From a virus, in the IMG/VR virus record IMGVR_UViG_3300032309_000777, positions 1 to 23,139 of that record: 23,139 bases of DNA. The stretch is one strand, 5' to 3'. This document shows, piece by piece, positions 3,768 through 19,754 of this stretch. Position 1 is the stretch's first letter. Each line of letters begins with the position of its first letter. A program made the position numbers and the translations under genes. The notes under the pieces were generated by a model. That model was not told the origin of the DNA, made no database searches, and saw only the letters and a program-made list of their open reading frames with translations.

Positions 3768-4726
3768 GCCTGATCCTCCTTGCCAAAGACTCGGAACACG
3801 CGCGCCCCTGGCTTCTCTGAAGTGAAGCGCTTGATGGCTTCACCGTAGGTGTCTGGAGCAACCGTTCGCAGGACATCTGCGATGCTCTCCCAGTCCACCT
3901 TGACGCTGCTCTTATTGGTCTTCCAAGTGGCAAGCCACCCCTGACCCTTGACTCCTTCGCCATCGGCGATGGCTTCCTTGATGGCGATTGCCATCTCCTT
4001 TAGCGCGGCATCGGCAGCCTCTGCCTCAACCTTCGCTTCGATGTAGAGCCGCGCAATGTGATCCAGCTGCGGATCAGCCACGGCGTAGGTGTTGTTGCTC
4101 TGCGGCTTGACTTCAGCGAGCGTGTCGCTGTCGTTGCCGGTCAGAGGTGGCGGAGTCTTGGACTGCACCAACTCGCGGAACAGGACGGCCTTGTCGAACA
4201 GTTGCGTCTGGTAGACAGGGTCAGCCTCCACGCGCTCAATGCGGAAGACCAAGCCAGATAGCAGCACCGCGACATCGCAGTACGACGCGCCTGTGATCAA
4301 CATCTGCCATTGCACCTGGTCGACATACTCAGGCGGCACTGGGTACAACTGCCAGCGGCTGCTCGTTGAGGTCTTGATCTCTACGAGACCGTCGGTGTCG
4401 CCCACGATGGTGCGGTCGAGCGAAGCCATCGCCCAGGGATGCTCCTTCAGGCGAACGATGCCGTTGCTCTTTCGCAGCTTCTTGCCAGTCTCGGCGGTGT
4501 AGTAGTCGGCGACTGCCTGCTCTAGCAGTTGACCGCGCTGGGCGGCCGCTCCGACTTCTTGCTCACCGACCTGACCAGTCAACTCTGCCCAGAGTCGATA
4601 CGCGGTCTTGTACGGCGACGAGCCGTTGATGGCGGTAATACCGGTGGCGGTGATGCCGCCCTTCCGCATCTCGAACCACTCTGGACTCCGCTGCGGTGCG
4701 GATACAAACTCAAAGCGCTTGCTCAT
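3764..4726 (-). CDS. YqaJ/lambda-exonuclease-family recombinase nuclease
   Basis: The family motifs are in order: RSPEWFEMRKGGITAT at 13-28, a Glu in GQLLEQ at 69, SLDRT with Asp104, VEIKTS with Glu116 and Lys118, and the helix DQVQWQM at 136-142. These define the YqaJ-like viral recombinase fold. The enzymes digest one strand of duplex ends 5' to 3', exposing single strands for the annealing protein. The 320-residue length is typical; residues from about 215 on add a coiled, Ala/Glu-rich region and a C-terminal domain. The ATG at 4726 overlaps the preceding zinc-ribbon stop as ATGA, and the end overlaps the next gene as GTGA. Confidence 0.88.
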   Translation of the reverse strand: MSKRFEFVSAPQRSPEWFEMRKGGITATGITAINGSSPYKTAYRLWAELTGQVGEQEVGAAAQRGQLLEQAVADYYTAETGKKLRKSNGIVRLKEHPWAMASLDRTIVGDTDGLVEIKTSTSSRWQLYPVPPEYVDQVQWQMLITGASYCDVAVLLSGLVFRIERVEADPVYQTQLFDKAVLFRELVQSKTPPPLTGNDSDTLAEVKPQSNNTYAVADPQLDHIARLYIEAKVEAEAADAALKEMAIAIKEAIADGEGVKGQGWLATWKTNKSSVKVDWESIADVLRTVAPDTYGEAIKRFTSEKPGARVFRVFGKEDQA

Positions 4727-5550: not shown

Positions 5551-5580
5551 CCCCTGGGTGGAGGAGGAGCCACCCAGGGG
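5551..5580 (-). terminator. Strong hairpin closing the lysis cassette
   Basis: CCCCTGGGTGG pairs perfectly with CCACCCAGGGG (11 base pairs) across an 8-base loop. It begins 7 bases after the stop of the small zinc-ribbon gene and precedes the early promoter. No T-run follows on the minus strand, so termination would be factor-assisted or the hairpin may mark a 3' processing end. On the minus strand the loop reads CTCCTCCT, complementary to a Shine-Dalgarno sequence. Confidence 0.6.
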
Positions 5581-5587
5581 AAGCCGC

Positions 5588-5743
5588 CTAGGACGGCTGT
5601 GTCAAGTCCTCTAGGCTGAGAGCCACTAGTAGTCGGAGGCAGACTCCACAGAGCAGCTCGCCTGCTGACTCGACCTCCCAGACCCTAGCGACCATCTCGC
5701 AGACGGAGCAGTTGCCGAATGGCTTGGCGACCTTGACCGGCAC
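5588..5743 (-). CDS. Zinc-ribbon microprotein downstream of the endolysin, 51 aa
   Basis: From a GTG at 5743, three bases after the endolysin stop and in the same frame, the reading frame gives a protein with CSVC (residues 12-15) and CGVC (32-35). This is a regular four-cysteine zinc ribbon followed by a Leu-rich C-terminus. No strong ribosome binding site is seen, so translation would depend on reinitiation after the endolysin or rare read-through of its TAA. The paired CxxC motifs, shared with the 43-residue protein of the early operon, argue that it is real. Confidence 0.55.
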   Translation of the reverse strand: MPVKVAKPFGNCSVCEMVARVWEVESAGELLCGVCLRLLVALSLEDLTQPS

Positions 5744-5746
5744 GAT

Positions 5747-6172
5747 TTACTTGTGAGGGCCGTTGCCGTTAGCGATCTCTGCCTTCGCCTTGCCGATACC
5801 GAACTTCGGATCGTCAGGGTTGAGGGCGCGCACGATGACCTGAAGGCAGGCGGCGATGGCACCGGCGAAGATCATATCTGCCTGGTCAGCGTCTAGGCGC
5901 GTGATCTGGGAGCCGCTCGCCAAGGCGATGGCGAGTCCAGTGCCGAGACCTGTGCGGAGCGCTTCGATGATCATCTCGTCAATGCCGGTATTGGCAATGA
6001 TCCAGCCGAGCGATGCCGCAGCCTTAGCGCGGAAGCCCTTCTTGCCGTTGCTTGCCTTCGCGGCTTCTACGAGCGCGCTGAAGGCTTCCTTGCCCTTGTC
6101 ATCCCAGTCAACGCGCTGGAGCGCGGCCTCAGCGTCGGCGATAACGGCGGCTGTCTTAGTGCTCTTTGCCAT
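5747..6172 (-). CDS. Nested holin-like protein from an internal start in the endolysin gene, 141 aa
   Basis: An in-frame ATG at 6172 follows AAGGAGGT at a spacing of four to five bases, a near-perfect Shine-Dalgarno match. The product would start MAKSTKTAAV, with a soluble helical N-terminus. Two hydrophobic segments follow, and a C-terminus (NPDDPKFGIGKAKAEIANG) recalls r1t-type holins. Internal starts that release C-terminal subunits are known in several endolysin genes, usually for cell-wall-binding domains. Here the released part would be membrane-active. Holin function is inferred from shape and location. Confidence 0.6.
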   Translation of the reverse strand: MAKSTKTAAVIADAEAALQRVDWDDKGKEAFSALVEAAKASNGKKGFRAKAAASLGWIIANTGIDEMIIEALRTGLGTGLAIALASGSQITRLDADQADMIFAGAIAACLQVIVRALNPDDPKFGIGKAKAEIANGNGPHK

Positions 6173-6925
6173 TGGAACCTCCTTAGGGTTGCTCTGTGGT
6201 GCCTGTACGACGATTGTAGGAGCAGGCGTAGGTGCGACTACTGGCGCTACCACAGGCGCTGCGACTGGCGCAGGCGTGGCGACCTTACCTGGGTGCGTGA
6301 CGATCAGCAGGCACTTGTAGTCCACCGCGACCTTCTTTGCCTTGACCTTGCTGTTGGCGATCTGGCGCAGCTGCTCTTCTGTGACCGGCACGCCGTACTT
6401 CTCAGCGGCTTGCTTATCGTCACGAGTCGGACACGCCCACTGCCAGCCGTGGTCTTCGCACCATCCTGCGGAGGTCATATGGCCATAGCCAGCCTTCAGG
6501 TGTGCTGGGTCTTTCTTGGTCCACCACTTCTTCCAGACATCGTGCCACTTGGAGATCCGCACATCTGGGTAGCCAACTGGCTGCTGCACCCAGACCATAA
6601 GAGCAGCGCCACCCTTGGCTGCTGCCATTGCGTCCTCCCACGACTTGGCATAGCGCGCCTTGCCGCCGAGTACAGCGATGGTCTGCGCGGCTTCTTTGAG
6701 CGAGCCGCCTGCGTCGTTCTTGCCCTGCACATCCTTGCGCCCTGTCGCCTTCTCGAATGCAGCGACTCCCTGAGCGGCGCTGTAGTCCACGGTGTAGCCA
6801 GAAGCCCACGAGACTGCGGCCGCCGCGGATGACCAGGTGCAGTCATCAAGGATCTGATTGGCTGCGCCCTTGACCTGCGCTTCAGCGTCGGCGTAGAGCT
6901 GCGACTTGACGCGGTACAGCGGCAT
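5747..6925 (-). CDS. Endolysin: C39-like cysteine peptidase with holin-like C-terminal domain
   Basis: Residues 1-215 look like a C39-type cysteine peptidase. DDCTWSSAAAAVSWASG gives the nucleophile Cys29 at a helix start, and a Trp-rich region with GYGHMTSAGWCEDHG supplies His149. Asp168/169 in the following TRDD are candidates for the third residue. In phages of Actinobacteria such domains occur in LysA endolysins and cut peptidoglycan peptide cross-links. A Pro/Ala/Val linker (about 216-251) follows. Residues 252-392 form a separate domain with two hydrophobic segments, around EALRTGLGTGLAIALASG and MIFAGAIAACLQVIVRAL, resembling small phage holins. The linker ends exactly at an internal start with a strong ribosome binding site. 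The ATG at 6925 shares one base with the preceding TAA. Confidence 0.7.
   Translation of the reverse strand: MPLYRVKSQLYADAEAQVKGAANQILDDCTWSSAAAAVSWASGYTVDYSAAQGVAAFEKATGRKDVQGKNDAGGSLKEAAQTIAVLGGKARYAKSWEDAMAAAKGGAALMVWVQQPVGYPDVRISKWHDVWKKWWTKKDPAHLKAGYGHMTSAGWCEDHGWQWACPTRDDKQAAEKYGVPVTEEQLRQIANSKVKAKKVAVDYKCLLIVTHPGKVATPAPVAAPVVAPVVAPTPAPTIVVQAPQSNPKEVPMAKSTKTAAVIADAEAALQRVDWDDKGKEAFSALVEAAKASNGKKGFRAKAAASLGWIIANTGIDEMIIEALRTGLGTGLAIALASGSQITRLDADQADMIFAGAIAACLQVIVRALNPDDPKFGIGKAKAEIANGNGPHK
6173..6186 (-). promoter_or_regulatory. Internal ribosome binding site within the endolysin gene
   Basis: TAAGGAGGT on the coding strand, just before the in-frame ATG at 6172, is among the best ribosome binding sites in the window although it lies inside an open frame. 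It encodes Pro-Lys-Glu-Val at the end of the linker. Confidence 0.65.
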
Positions 6926-7176
6926 TAGGCGTTCTCTTTCTTGATCAGCACGGCGATTGCTCGACCGGCTGCGTCAAAGTCCAGAGCGGCGCTGACAGGG
7001 AATCCCTCTGTGCAGCCCTCTGAGTAGTCGTTGCCATCTTCGCCCTGCTTCCAGAGCGTGCCACCGAATGCGCTGGTATCGGCGCTCAGCACGAGTGCCA
7101 CCCACTCACCTGGCGCGGTATTGATCCGCGTCCAACCCTGCTCGTGGATCTGCTCGATGTGATCTGCTGCGCTCAT
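6925..7176 (-). CDS. Hypothetical protein of the lysis cassette, 83 aa
   Basis: No family recognised. A helical N-terminus (SAADHIEQIHEQGW) is followed by a beta-type region with several Gly and Asp and two Trp. I chose the ATG at 7176, which shares one base with the preceding TAA (TAATG) and has GGAGGA four bases upstream. An ATG at 7191 would add five residues and bury the ribosome binding site in the coding region. It sits immediately before the endolysin, so an accessory lysis role is possible but unsupported. Confidence 0.6.
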   Translation of the reverse strand: MSAADHIEQIHEQGWTRINTAPGEWVALVLSADTSAFGGTLWKQGEDGNDYSEGCTEGFPVSAALDFDAAGRAIAVLIKKENA

Positions 7177-7349
7177 TATTCCTCCATCCACCTAAGTGGT
7201 CCAGTGACGAGCCAGATGATTGTCAGCCCACCGAATAGCGTCGCCATCGTGGACTGCGTGTCGCCCTCTGGCAGAACAACGACAGCAAAGAGCAAGCCTA
7301 GGATCGTCCAGGCTCCGCCTACTAGGTCAACGATAATCCGCTTGATCAC
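7176..7349 (-). CDS. Two-helix membrane protein, candidate holin or holin partner, 57 aa
   Basis: A GTG start at 7349 overlaps the TGA of the PA14 protein. Hydrophobic segments span about residues 5-26 (IIVDLVGGAWTILGLLFAVV) and 35-51 (MATLFGGLTIIWLVTGP), joined by an acidic loop. The hairpin topology and small size fit holins of the two-helix class, and it lies between two other lysis candidates. There is no diagnostic motif, so a holin, antiholin or unrelated membrane protein remain possible. Confidence 0.65.
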   Translation of the reverse strand: MIKRIIVDLVGGAWTILGLLFAVVVLPEGDTQSTMATLFGGLTIIWLVTGPLRWMEE

Positions 7350-8494
7350 TTGCTTGCCTTTCTGGCTGCACTTGCAGCTGCTGCGCTGGCTGCGGTCGAT
7401 GCTGCGGCGACGGCCGCACTGGCTACCTGACCGATGATGATGGCGATGGCGACCGGTGCAGCCTTCTGCTTCTCGACTGGAGAGAGATCCTTGCCGAGAT
7501 TGGCGATGGCCTCCACAGCCTGCGTGACGGTCTCCGCAACTGCGGCTGCCGCCTCTCCTACTGCTTCGCTCACTGCCGCAATAGTCTCACCGACTACTGC
7601 TGCTGCTTCTTCCGCAATGTTATCTGGTGACGGTGACGGCGACGGTGTTGGCTCCACGGTTGGCTCTACCGATGGTTCAGTAGTAGGTACAGGAGTGGGA
7701 GTAGGAGTAGGGGACTCTGTCGGACTAGGAACTGGCGAAGGCTTGGGCGTGGGCGACGGCTGGGGTGTGGGAGTCGGTGTCGGTTCTGGGGTTGGTTCAA
7801 CACTTGGCAACTCACTTTCTATAGGGCTTGGGGTAGGCTCCGGCGATGGAGTTTCTGATGGACTTGGTTCTGGCGTTGGCTCAACAGATGGCTCTGGGCT
7901 TTGCTCTGGTGACGGCTCTGCGCTTGGCTCTGGCGTTGGTAGGGCGCTGGTAGTCAGCCACTCGGTTGGCACGGTGCCATAGCCGAGAGTTGGTGCGCCG
8001 TACCAGAGACGCGCGCACGCGCCACCGCCCCACTCGAACATCCAGATGTCGAGTGCGTAGGACTGACCTGCAACGAGCTGCGAGTAGCCCTCATTCGGTC
8101 CTGACCAGTGACCGCCGCAGCCGTGGAAGTTCCAGTCATCAATCGTCAGCACGCCGTCTAGCGTCATCCGCCAGCCATCGTCGCTCCAGTTGAGGAACTC
8201 CCACTGGCCGCTCTCTGGCACGGTCAGCCAGCCTGTGAAGTTCACAAGGAAGAAGTCGCCTGGGCAGCCCTCTGCCGGTGCAGCGCCACCCCAGTCGTAG
8301 TCGATGTTTGGCACGACGGCGGAGTAGCAGACTGGCAGGTCTGGCGTGGTCTCCCACGGAATGAGTCCAAGCGGTGAGCCGTCGTAGACGGTCATCGTCA
8401 CGCCCTGCTGCGGCGTGTCCTCAGCGCGCACGATGGGCAGGAAGATGAGCGTGCTGAACACGATCCCCAGCAGTGGGAACGCGGCGCGCTTCAC
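7346..8494 (-). CDS. Secreted PA14-domain protein with Pro-rich linker and Ala-rich membrane-like tail
   Basis: The 382-residue protein opens with a signal peptide (residues 1-24: two basic residues, hydrophobic core, VRA before the predicted cut). Residues 33-170 form a PA14-like beta-sandwich; landmarks are FTGWLTVPESGQWEF, SDDGWRMTLDG, YALDIWMFEWGGG and ARLWYG. Four cysteines (56, 77, 126, 160) could make disulfides outside the cytoplasm. PA14 domains often bind carbohydrates. Residues 186-290 are a Pro/Ser/Thr/Glu linker of the wall-spanning type. Residues 295-382 are Ala-rich, with a hydrophobic stretch at about 346-377 that may anchor the protein. The GTG start overlaps the holin-like gene stop. 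It could be a surface decoration of the infected cell, a superinfection-exclusion factor, or a spanin-like envelope protein. Confidence 0.72.
   Translation of the reverse strand: MKRAAFPLLGIVFSTLIFLPIVRAEDTPQQGVTMTVYDGSPLGLIPWETTPDLPVCYSAVVPNIDYDWGGAAPAEGCPGDFFLVNFTGWLTVPESGQWEFLNWSDDGWRMTLDGVLTIDDWNFHGCGGHWSGPNEGYSQLVAGQSYALDIWMFEWGGGACARLWYGAPTLGYGTVPTEWLTTSALPTPEPSAEPSPEQSPEPSVEPTPEPSPSETPSPEPTPSPIESELPSVEPTPEPTPTPTPQPSPTPKPSPVPSPTESPTPTPTPVPTTEPSVEPTVEPTPSPSPSPDNIAEEAAAVVGETIAAVSEAVGEAAAAVAETVTQAVEAIANLGKDLSPVEKQKAAPVAIAIIIGQVASAAVAAASTAASAAAASAARKASK
7625..7939 (-). repeat. Degenerate Pro-Glu-Pro/Pro-Thr-Pro repeat region
   Basis: About 105 codons of the PA14 protein are short degenerate repeats of the types PTPEPS, PSPEPT and PTPTPT. 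The DNA is correspondingly repetitive and likely to recombine or slip. The opposite strand is open here only because of this codon bias. Confidence 0.75.
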
Positions 8495-13885: not shown

Positions 13886-14095
13886 TTACTTACCTTTCGG
13901 CTGCATCTCTGAGTGGAGTTCCCACGCGGCAAGCACTTCTTCTACCGGTCGGCTCGCTACATCGTCTGGCCACATCCCATATTTCTCAGCCAAGATCGAG
14001 AAGATGATTTCTGGCGGCGGCACGATTGATTGACCGTGTGCCATCCGCCGAGCAGCGAGCCTTACTTGGGGTCCAGTTGATTCCCCTTCGCCCAC
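13886..14095 (-). CDS. T part of the tail assembly chaperone (GT fusion by frameshift)
   Basis: This frame overlaps the end of the G-like gene in the -1 frame, as in lambda G/GT. Residues 22-69 (QSIVPPPEIIFSILAEKYGMWPDDV ... LAAWELHSEM) form the short helical domain typical of the T segment. The frame is open from a GTG at 14095, but it is probably expressed mainly as a GT fusion of about 147 residues made at the slippery run near 14086. It ends directly before the gp10-like gene. The fusion is inferred from layout; independent initiation at GTG is the alternative. Confidence 0.65.
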   Translation of the reverse strand: MGEGESTGPQVRLAARRMAHGQSIVPPPEIIFSILAEKYGMWPDDVASRPVEEVLAAWELHSEMQPKGK

Positions 14096-14328
14096 TGTTC
14101 CATTAGCGCGGTTAGCGCTTCTACCGGTGCGTCAAGGATGTCATCAATCTCTTCGCCGTTAATGCCCTTGAAATCGTGCGATACGACCAGAGCGGCGAAT
14201 GCTGGGAAGACCCTGGCGGTTTCGGAAGACTGAAGGTCAAGCAGAATCCTTGCGGATACGCCTGCCCTGATCTCTGCCTTCCACCCTGCGAAATCTCCAT
14301 CAAGAACGATGATGCGGTTCTCTGCCAT
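14062..14328 (-). CDS. Tail assembly chaperone, G-like, 88 aa
   Basis: A small acidic protein between the major tail protein and the T frame, in the position of lambda gpG. It is predominantly helical after residue 20 (ARILLDLQSSETARVFPAFA; IDDILDAPVEALTALMEQWA) after a beta start (IIVLDGDFAGWKAEIRAG). Such chaperones coat the tape measure and guide tail-tube polymerisation; they are absent from the virion. The ATG at 14328 has GGAGGA a few bases upstream. The last 34 bases overlap the T frame. Confidence 0.72.
   Translation of the reverse strand: MAENRIIVLDGDFAGWKAEIRAGVSARILLDLQSSETARVFPAFAALVVSHDFKGINGEEIDDILDAPVEALTALMEQWAKGNQLDPK
14080..14086 (-). promoter_or_regulatory. Candidate -1 programmed frameshift site
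   Basis: The zero-frame codons AAG GGG AAT give GGGGAAT. A tRNA on GGG can re-pair one base upstream within the four-G run, entering the T frame at GAA. The G-like stop codon follows six codons later. The heptamer is not a perfect X-XXY-YYZ, as the second tRNA would mispair. Confidence 0.45.
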
Positions 14329-18242: not shown

Positions 18243-18965
18243 CTAGAGTGCGTCACCTTCTGCCGCCGAGACCGCGAGCAGCGCTGCGGCGATTGACGGA
18301 TCAATCCCCACAGGCTTTGGCGCGAGCTTGGAACGGACAGCATCAATCACAACCACTTCCTCGGCGGACAGTTCGCGTCCAGCCTTGATTGTTTCCAGTG
18401 TGGCAAGCAGCGCCTCTGCCTCTACGCCGATCTTTGGCGCAGTGACCTGGCGGATTGCCGTGAGACCAAGGGTCGCAGGGTAGGCAGGAGTCTGACCACC
18501 GGCGGCAAGGATGCTCACCTCAAAGAGGTTGGCTTCCTTGATCGTGCGGTTGTTGCCATCCCACGCATCCTGAACCTTCTGGAAGCCGAACGACATCCCA
18601 GCAGCGGCGCTCTCGTGCGTCAGCATCGAGATGACCTTGGCTGCGTCTGGATCGGCTGGGTCAAGTTTGGCTTCTACGCGAAGGCCAGTCTCATCCTCAG
18701 TCAACTGAAGGCGACCGCTTGCCGTGGTGGCAAGAGCGCGCGTCTCGTCGTGACCGAACAGGAAGGCGATGATCTTCTGCCCTGCGGATGCGCGAGCCAG
18801 CGAACGCTTGAATGCGTTCGGCGCGATCTTCTCCTCGAATGGCAGACCAGCAGATGCGCTGTTCCAGATAGATGCGTAGCCGGTAAAGGTTCGCTGACCA
18901 TCCGCATCGGCATCGGCAAGTCGGAACTCACCCATCGGTACGGATCGAGTTTCTTTCTCTTTCAT
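18243..18965 (-). CDS. Prohead protease from an internal start, 240 aa
   Basis: The in-frame ATG at 18965 (Met264 of the fusion) is preceded by AGGGAG with nine bases of spacing. The product of 240 residues is the usual size of stand-alone HK97 proteases and contains both His and Ser active residues (72 and 125 in this numbering). A shorter protease could thus be made besides the long HAD fusion, or the long form could be processed. Both forms are predicted, not shown. Confidence 0.55.
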   Translation of the reverse strand: MKEKETRSVPMGEFRLADADADGQRTFTGYASIWNSASAGLPFEEKIAPNAFKRSLARASAGQKIIAFLFGHDETRALATTASGRLQLTEDETGLRVEAKLDPADPDAAKVISMLTHESAAAGMSFGFQKVQDAWDGNNRTIKEANLFEVSILAAGGQTPAYPATLGLTAIRQVTAPKIGVEAEALLATLETIKAGRELSAEEVVVIDAVRSKLAPKPVGIDPSIAAALLAVSAAEGDAL

Positions 18966-19754
18966 ATCAACAATCTCCCTATCTTCAGCGGCGATCAAAG
19001 CATCTGCCCACGAGAGTACGCGATCAGTTGCTTCGCGGTCAGTTGTTTCCACACCCCAAAGGAAGCCAGCAACAGCGCCTGGACCTGGGAAGTCCTCGTT
19101 GTCCTGATCCTGATTCTGCGGTACGCCTTCCCAGTCGCCGCGATGACGGCGAATCCACGCGGCCATACGGATGACCTTGTCGGTGTCTGCGCGCCCTGCG
19201 GCGAGTTCACGAGCCTCTGCGATGGTCTGTGGCTGCAAGCCTTCGCCAGCGTAGCCATCCTCAACGAATGACAAACCTCTAGCAGCGGCGTTGCGAATGT
19301 ATTCAGGCACCTCGTACACAGCGCGCTCATCGTTCGAGTGATCTTCTTCTGCGCCGTGTAGCGCCTCGGCGGCGAGCAACTCCTGTGCGGTATATGCCTT
19401 GATGCCCATACCTTCAGCGTTGCTGCGAGCCTCTGCTGAATCGTCAACGACATAGCCGATCTCTGCGAGTCCGTACTCCTCAACAATCTTGGCGTACTTG
19501 TACGCCTTGAATGCCTCAATGACATTCGGTCCAGGGGTCTCGCTGAAGTCGTTCAGATAGATCTCTTCATATGGCACGCCATTATCGCGCAGCCACTTCT
19601 CGGTCTCTGCAAGGCGGCTGATTGGACGGCCGCTGACGATGAAGATCCGCACGCCCTCATCTTGTACATCGGTCTTGATGTAGTCGATCAGGTCTTGGCG
19701 TGGCGTGTCGCCACCGGTCGTGAGCGTATTGTCAATGTCGTAGATCTCGATCAC
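18243..19754 (-). CDS. HAD phosphatase-prohead protease fusion
   Basis: The 503-residue frame has three parts. Residues 1-122 show HAD motifs: YDIDNTLT (Asp6, Asp8), FIVSGRP (Ser41), and YVVDDS (Asp104, Asp105), like the phosphatase domain of polynucleotide kinase-phosphatases. Residues 147-250 (EVPEYIRNAAARGL, AWIRRHRGDW, FLWG) are a module I recall from other phage head proteins; its role is unknown. Residues 275-440 are an HK97-type prohead protease: FTGYASIWN, FGHDETRA with His335, AAAGMSFGF with Ser388, and NLFEVSIL. The protease cleaves capsid and scaffold domains in the prohead. The GTG start overlaps the portal stop (GTGA). A strong internal start lies at 18965. Confidence 0.8.
   Translation of the reverse strand: MIEIYDIDNTLTTGGDTPRQDLIDYIKTDVQDEGVRIFIVSGRPISRLAETEKWLRDNGVPYEEIYLNDFSETPGPNVIEAFKAYKYAKIVEEYGLAEIGYVVDDSAEARSNAEGMGIKAYTAQELLAAEALHGAEEDHSNDERAVYEVPEYIRNAAARGLSFVEDGYAGEGLQPQTIAEARELAAGRADTDKVIRMAAWIRRHRGDWEGVPQNQDQDNEDFPGPGAVAGFLWGVETTDREATDRVLSWADALIAAEDREIVDMKEKETRSVPMGEFRLADADADGQRTFTGYASIWNSASAGLPFEEKIAPNAFKRSLARASAGQKIIAFLFGHDETRALATTASGRLQLTEDETGLRVEAKLDPADPDAAKVISMLTHESAAAGMSFGFQKVQDAWDGNNRTIKEANLFEVSILAAGGQTPAYPATLGLTAIRQVTAPKIGVEAEALLATLETIKAGRELSAEEVVVIDAVRSKLAPKPVGIDPSIAAALLAVSAAEGDAL

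Follow-up and report, generated by a model that had tools for sequence, protein, structure and literature searches.

The window, that is the whole stretch of DNA analysed, comprises the 23,139 bases of the virus record IMGVR_UViG_3300032309_000777 and has a G+C content of 58%. Packaging, capsid and tail genes precede, on the minus strand, an open reading frame (ORF) in which a catalytic and a C-terminal module share one common stop codon. A sequence-only reading of this DNA had described the ORF, with no strand given, as a peptidase joined to a domain with two hydrophobic segments, and this architecture is confirmed on the minus strand. The features of the locus are the following:

7176..7349, minus strand: ORF of 57 aa upstream of the fused gene, encoding two hydrophobic segments; candidate for a second holin-like protein (hydropathy, survey of relatives)
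6925..7191, minus strand: small ORF between the 57-aa ORF and the fused gene, with no hydrophobic stretch by eye; its true start is likely ATG 7176, behind GGAGG
5747..6925, minus strand: fused gene for a C39-like peptidase, a Pro/Ala linker and a predicted two-helix membrane domain, 392 aa (ORF with ATG start and TAA stop)
6290..6925, minus strand: peptidase module, residues 1-212 (papain/C39-like fold model, invariant Cys and His)
6173..6289, minus strand: Pro/Ala-rich linker, residues 213-251 (sequence; pLDDT below 50 for residues 218-259)
6177..6184, minus strand: internal Shine-Dalgarno AAGGAGGT, 4 bases 5' of the internal ATG
5747..6172, minus strand: candidate nested holin-like gene with in-frame ATG 6172-6170 and a predicted 141-aa product (start signal, relatives)
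5918..5980, minus strand: first hydrophobic helix, residues 316-336 (model, hydropathy)
5822..5890, minus strand: second hydrophobic helix, residues 346-368 (model, hydropathy)

Start sites were scored by the energy, in kcal/mol, of their pairing with the anti-Shine-Dalgarno. The first start of the fused gene overlaps the stop codon of the preceding gene as TAATG and has a weak Shine-Dalgarno (-2.9 kcal/mol).

Several further features surround the locus. At 7346-8494 (minus strand) lies a gene for a 382-aa protein that has a signal-like N-terminus and a PA14 domain (E 1.7e-12), continues with a long stretch rich in Pro, Ser, Thr and Glu, and ends in a hydrophobic, Ala-rich C-terminus; in the related loci L072, L102 and L104, Pro-rich proteins whose ends resemble it are encoded upstream of the peptidase. 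An ORF at 5588-5743 (minus strand) begins 3 bases past the stop of the fused gene and encodes a zinc-ribbon-like protein of 51 aa with two CxxC pairs, and a similar CxxC ORF lies behind the lysis genes of L080. The perfect 11-base inverted repeat CCCCTGGGTGG / CCACCCAGGGG at 5551-5580, behind the lysis genes, is terminator-like and without a T run. Elsewhere in the window, two small overlapping ORFs with no Pfam match (13886-14095 and 14062-14328, minus strand) lie upstream of the tape-measure gene, in a layout presumably like that of tail assembly chaperones made by frameshifting.

Modules, relatives and module exchange

Residues 1-212 are modelled as a papain-like domain, with confidence mostly above 70. 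The best solved match of the model is the pseudomurein endoisopeptidase PeiR (8z4n; Z 12.8, rmsd 3.0 over 148), and the C39-like peptidase 3erv aligns with Z 10.6 and rmsd 4.5 over 164. Both share their fold with the predicted model, but their identity to it is 13-14% and neither gives a sequence-profile match. The two residues that the sequence-only reading had singled out, Cys29 (6841-6839) and His149 (6481-6479), are invariant in 26/26 aligned proteins; judging by their position and by the fold, they are putatively catalytic. No C39 profile match was obtained at E up to 1 for the window protein or up to 10 for the 26 members. For the fused protein and its 141-aa part, Pfam gave no family at E up to 1 and PHROGs gave families of unknown function alone (E 0.88 and 0.12), and a profile search of solved structures returned 0 matches at E up to 1. 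The BFVD collection holds uncultured-phage proteins 45-52% identical to the peptidase, with no function named. Mycobacteriophage N5 lysin domains are matched to a B. anthracis C39-like peptidase in the available part of PMC3314691.

Four queries against uncultured viral contigs gave 173, 42, 307 and 41 relatives. From these, 80, 42, 80 and 40 loci were retrieved (the best 80 of 173 and the best 80 of 307 for the two largest sets), and the counts are those of retrieved loci, not natural frequencies. The set comprises 222 sequences including the window. Both modules are present in 217 of them, the remaining 5 (L095, L105, L182, L184 and L214) being dropped, and 80 of the 217 repeat regions already counted, which leaves 137 distinct loci. 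The split and fused versions whose comparison had been proposed both exist: among the matches listed, 76 of the distinct two-module loci are fused and 61 are split. The 76 include one added genome-contig relative, a 6 kb contig binned as Rhodobacteraceae; this bin is not trusted as a host assignment. In the split loci the membrane protein is a separate gene directly behind the peptidase. In 59/61 of them (matches listed) it has a start no more than about 30 bases from the peptidase stop, and the exceptions are L072 and L080, where the peptidase stop overlaps a GTG start as GTGA. The stand-alone starts have a median pairing of -7.3 (57 scored). Searches of 50,697 phage records, from which near copies of the window were perhaps left out, gave no match for the fused protein, the separate peptidase or the separate membrane protein. 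Just downstream of the split two-helix gene, L143 (~1661-1847) and L159 (~4427-4613) carry Lys/Ala/Pro-rich ORFs of 61 aa with a strong Shine-Dalgarno (-11.4).

The hydrophobic segments of the C-terminal domain are moderate in the window, the first helix being just moderately hydrophobic: the Kyte-Doolittle maxima are 1.43 (from residue 318) and 1.78 (from residue 351), and the Pro/Ala linker reaches 1.54. The domain is modelled as helical with low confidence (pLDDT 65). Holin profiles matched single members of 25 at noise level (best E 0.11 in PHROGs and 0.74 in Pfam, also 1.5), and alignment of the model to the PDB gave nothing above Z 5.8, the chance range for helical proteins. The nearest structural matches of the isolated domain are three small stand-alone BFVD proteins named Holin (E 1.0e-4 to 2.6e-3, identity 33-43%), the names being presumably automatic. 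The proposed comparison of residues 252-392 with holin families thus gave these three structures, and profile matches at noise level.

Since the hydropathy is moderate, the stretches might be buried helices of a soluble wall-binding domain, and the gene would then make an ordinary wall-binding fragment; the internal starts described for endolysins in the available part of PMC9430671 do yield a wall-binding or a second catalytic domain. However, no wall-binding family was matched in the family scans, the nearest structural matches are the proteins named Holin, and two hydropathy peaks of at least 1.2 occur in 61/61 split and 70/76 fused members (131/137; matches listed). A soluble wall-binding domain is therefore quite improbable. 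The gene order of the split loci bears on the same question. In 7/8 of those listed, a long ORF (950-1034 aa) lies upstream, its end 58-220 bases from the peptidase gene, and the two-helix gene comes next; the listing shows no other small hydrophobic ORF between the long ORF and the two-helix gene. The latter adjoins the lysin and therefore stands in the position expected for a holin. On the best reading of model and sequence, the C-terminal domain is probably holin-like, with pore formation predicted.

The C-terminal module is exchanged between lysins. On a quick tree of 134 peptidase modules (no bootstrap; three short rows left out), the fused or split state changes at least 5 times, with 3 changes forced by starred branches. 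Fused C-terminal modules of the two kinds are intermingled on this tree, the kind found in the window showing 15 changes, 6 of them forced. Among the fused pairs with peptidases at least 90% identical, 95/192 have C-terminal modules less than 60% identical; L012 and L064, for example, share 99.5% of the peptidase and 28% of the C-terminal module. Conversely, 30 pairs have peptidases below 70% and C-terminal parts above 85% identity. DNA similarity drops at the end of the peptidase in 5/5 plotted pairs, and it recovers behind the gene in L012/L064, where the break is at the linker, and in L011/L058 and L013/L058, but not in L005/L033 or window/L033. The C-terminal module is thus swapped between near-identical peptidases, and module and start together behave like a gene. 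The 76 fused loci, which by definition are in frame, show 22 different lengths of the stretch from peptidase to helix. Around the window, in a starred group of 68 loci, the split state is limited to L072 and L080, which suggests that the fusion itself is kept there.

The internal start

The internal start signal consists of AAGGAGGT (6184-6177), the spacer TCCA and an in-frame ATG (6172-6170), at the point where the Pro/Ala linker ends. The sequence-only reading had placed a Shine-Dalgarno four to five bases before this ATG and had called it stronger than most gene starts. The spacing is 4, and the site proves the strongest of all those scored in the window: with -12.7 kcal/mol it ranks 1 among 240 internal in-frame start codons and exceeds the starts of all 30 ORFs taken as genes, the runners-up reaching -12.3 and -12.1. 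The signal is real, yet from this single sequence it lies within chance; it is in the relatives that chance is exceeded. Synonymous-codon shuffles of the fused ORF equalled or bettered the score at M252 in 6391/20000 cases (32%) and gave an equal or better score at some internal site in 976/3000, because Lys-Glu-Val readily encodes such a site. In the predicted RNA pairing the Met codon is mostly paired (0.10 unpaired), with 2/12 compared gene starts equally low, and the Shine-Dalgarno is less paired (0.59 unpaired).

The non-significant shuffle test would agree with an internal start that is an unused relic of a gene fusion by loss of a stop codon, the full-length fusion being the sole product. 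Split relatives with their own start are common, so a relic of this kind is to be expected after fusion. The distribution of the signal among the relatives speaks to this point. The 30 nearest distinct fused loci all carry the internal start codon (ATG 26, GTG 4), in each case with a pairing of -7 or stronger, and the next best place of the alignment reaches 6/30. The residue after the start varies (A, P, N, T, Q), and in three of these loci ERSS replaces KEVP before the start, yet GAGAGGAG is kept 5' of the ATG. Pairing in this group ranges from -8.6 to -12.9, and some 51 residues lie between the start and the first helix. In the Shine-Dalgarno site the Glu codon is GAG in 27/27 loci; among other well-filled Glu columns, 1/9 is also invariantly GAG under a looser rule and 0/6 under the strict rule. 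Lys columns are often invariantly AAG. This codon-level Glu test gives modest, suggestive support for conservation of the site.

The other 46 fused loci are without the signal of the nearest group and have an ATG (35) or GTG (11) just 5' of the first helix, approximately where the stand-alone genes begin. A start codon without a Shine-Dalgarno does not single out this helix-proximal place, which has one in 46/46 loci, against 45 and 43 in other ten-column windows and a median of 10. With a Shine-Dalgarno at -7, the place is found in 22/46 loci and the next best place in 6/46. At -5 the figures are 38 and 31, and 8/46 loci miss this level; weak helix-proximal starts are those of, for example, L051, L059, L067, L074, L096, L177 and L221. 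The -5 threshold has rival peaks inside the peptidase (31/46; 19/30), and the -7 threshold is therefore relied on.

The start of the nearest group thus sits elsewhere than that of the other fused loci, and also away from the starts of the separate genes except L072 and L080 (the helix-nearest start being taken); the signal is nevertheless present, which makes a mere relic hard to argue. In addition, the pairing in the nearest group is stronger than the stand-alone median. Decay would be expected of a relic, but the start codon and its Shine-Dalgarno are kept in 30/30 loci, even where the residues differ. An unused relic is consequently considered unlikely, and conservation across relatives supports use of the start at 6172, as the sequence-only reading had suggested. 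Neither of the two results that this reading had named as refuting it came up.

Intragenic Shine-Dalgarno-like stretches have been proposed to slow ribosomes. As AAGGAGG stands exactly at the domain boundary, it could be a pausing signal that aids the separate folding or insertion of the domains, the Met codon being incidental. However, pausing does not need a start codon, and yet an ATG or GTG is present in 30/30 loci; moreover, a start codon and a Shine-Dalgarno (-7) stand at a different, helix-proximal place in 22 of the 46 remaining fused loci. The pausing explanation has very little probability.

A parallel arrangement is found in another gene of the window:

18243-19754, minus strand: gene for a HAD-like domain and a prohead serine protease, 503 residues (Peptidase_S78, E 4.1e-29)

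The HAD-like matches of this gene lie below the curated cut-offs. An internal ATG at 18965 stands right before the protease and is preceded by GGGAGAT and then ATGAAAGAG. The best 80 of 123 relatives were used, with 81 sequences examined and 73 distinct ones, the window included. In these the internal start is kept in 73/73 (ATG 68, GTG 5); its place scores 73/73 at -6, against 30 for the next best place, and 69 against 21 at -8. The pieces of this gene lie in more than one ORF in 0/81 sequences. This phage thus has another fused gene, for which a nested product is probable, and fusions that carry a start for their second part may perhaps be a habit of this phage group.

Two predicted products and known systems

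The preferred reading, with a probability of about 0.72, is that one gene gives rise to a membrane-tethered peptidase and to a free holin-like protein, as a lysin-holin fusion that has kept the start of the membrane protein. Ribosomes coming from the upstream gene through the TAATG overlap would make the 392-residue protein, a C39-like wall peptidase on a flexible Pro/Ala tether to a two-helix membrane hairpin. Other ribosomes would initiate at AAGGAGGT-N4-ATG, yielding just the 141-residue hairpin. By eye, basic charges flank the pair of helices on both outer sides, and the loop between them is acidic. This pattern fits a hairpin inserted with both ends inside (N-in, C-in), and the enzyme would therefore be kept at the cytoplasmic side of the membrane. 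Through their common hairpin the two products would then co-assemble and, when the lesion opens, the tethered peptidase would reach the wall or be cut free. The small two-helix protein encoded upstream would act as a second holin-like partner.

The role of this upstream protein also bears on that of the fused domain. In the 450 bases that precede the peptidase, 65/69 fused and 10/56 split loci have a small hydrophobic ORF, and 46/56 split loci have none (12/137 loci with too little upstream DNA left out). As this survey also picks up the Ala-rich tail of the Pro-rich protein encoded upstream, 65/69 may be too high. The fused phages either use two holin-like proteins, or have an anchor in the fused domain and the holin in the upstream protein. 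In the latter case the internal start would still be used, the C-terminal domain would be an anchor or SAR-like release domain, the 57-aa upstream protein the true holin, and the short product an antiholin-like or spacer subunit. The unequal occurrence of the upstream ORF in fused and split loci favours this arrangement, and so does the essential C-terminal transmembrane helix of the Acidovorax phage AP1 endolysin (available part of PMC8879335). On the other hand, the domain is a separate protein in 61 distinct loci among the matches listed and so cannot anchor the enzyme there, 46/56 split loci lack another small hydrophobic ORF in the neighbourhood, and two hydrophobic segments rather than one are present in 131/137 members. 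A mere anchoring role is thus regarded as rather doubtful.

A wider proposal that builds on the preferred reading is offered tentatively, at less than even odds. The holin would be a mobile cassette with its own start, swapped among near-identical lysins either as a gene or as a fusion. The fused form would produce a mixed pore in which some subunits bear a tethered enzyme, and the opening of the hole and the delivery of the enzyme would be one event.

If both products are made, a single gene would supply a lysis timing protein and the lytic enzyme, two ribosome sites would fix their ratio, and the membrane complex would incorporate part of the enzyme. The fused form could not diffuse freely and would therefore bear on how a folded lysin crosses the membrane. 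The natural relatives, some split and some fused, in which near-identical lysins carry different modules, offer a ready comparison series.

In Staphylococcus phage 187, a holin-like gene is reportedly nested in the endolysin gene out of frame and is thus not part of the endolysin. It uses another reading frame, whereas the nested gene described here is in frame. In-frame internal starts are predicted in about half of the Gram-positive phage endolysins surveyed in PMC9430671 (available part), and Ms6 LysA yields two polypeptides, Lysin384 and Lysin241, from a single gene (available part of PMC3111421). According to these portions, Ms6 LysA and the surveyed endolysins have, as here, one ORF, an in-frame internal start with its own Shine-Dalgarno and a common stop. 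In them the short product carries, however, a wall-binding or a second catalytic domain, and here it is predicted to be a two-helix, probably membrane, protein; the words 'transmembrane' and 'membrane' occur 0 times in PMC9430671.

Fusions of enzyme and membrane part have also been described. A natural holin-endolysin fusion occurs in six Clostridium sporogenes genomes (available part of PMC9527704) and joins a holin-family membrane domain and an endolysin in one polypeptide, as the present gene is predicted to do. In that portion of the source the holin is N-terminal, whereas here the peptidase comes first and the membrane domain last, with a free membrane product predicted. LysAP of Acidovorax phage AP1 has a C-terminal membrane segment, as is predicted here, and needs it for localisation and lysis; but the available part of PMC8879335 describes a single helix (194-216), with the holin encoded by its own gene next to it, and 'internal', 'in frame' and 'fused' occur 0 times in the paper. 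A single helix confined to the enzyme, as in LysAP, is not what is seen here, where two segments are found and the domain is a separate gene in 61/137 loci (matches listed).

Actinophage lysis cassettes contain several holin-like proteins (available parts of PMC9671378 and PMC13056207). These are small one- or two-helix proteins beside lysins, one of them N-in, C-in, and in these portions they are separate genes, unlike here. Cluster F1 mycobacteriophages use two holin-like proteins (available part of PMC13056207). In the available part of PMC9671378, a possible holin-capsid fusion is mentioned, and 'fusion' refers to a capsid protein and to lysis in general; the words 'fused' and 'in-frame' are absent from that paper. 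A search of gene 10 of phage L5 for an embedded second holin gene found none, as stated in the available part of PMC3314691. An endolysin gene that releases a holin-like protein from an internal in-frame start was not found reported in the open-licence PMC literature. The sequence-only reading had called both the release of a holin-like domain and the fusion of enzyme and pore unusual; for the fusion this holds with a reservation, the reversed holin-endolysin fusion and the endolysin with a C-terminal membrane helix being published. What appears new is the combination of an enzyme-membrane fusion with an internal start for the membrane part, each of which is known alone.
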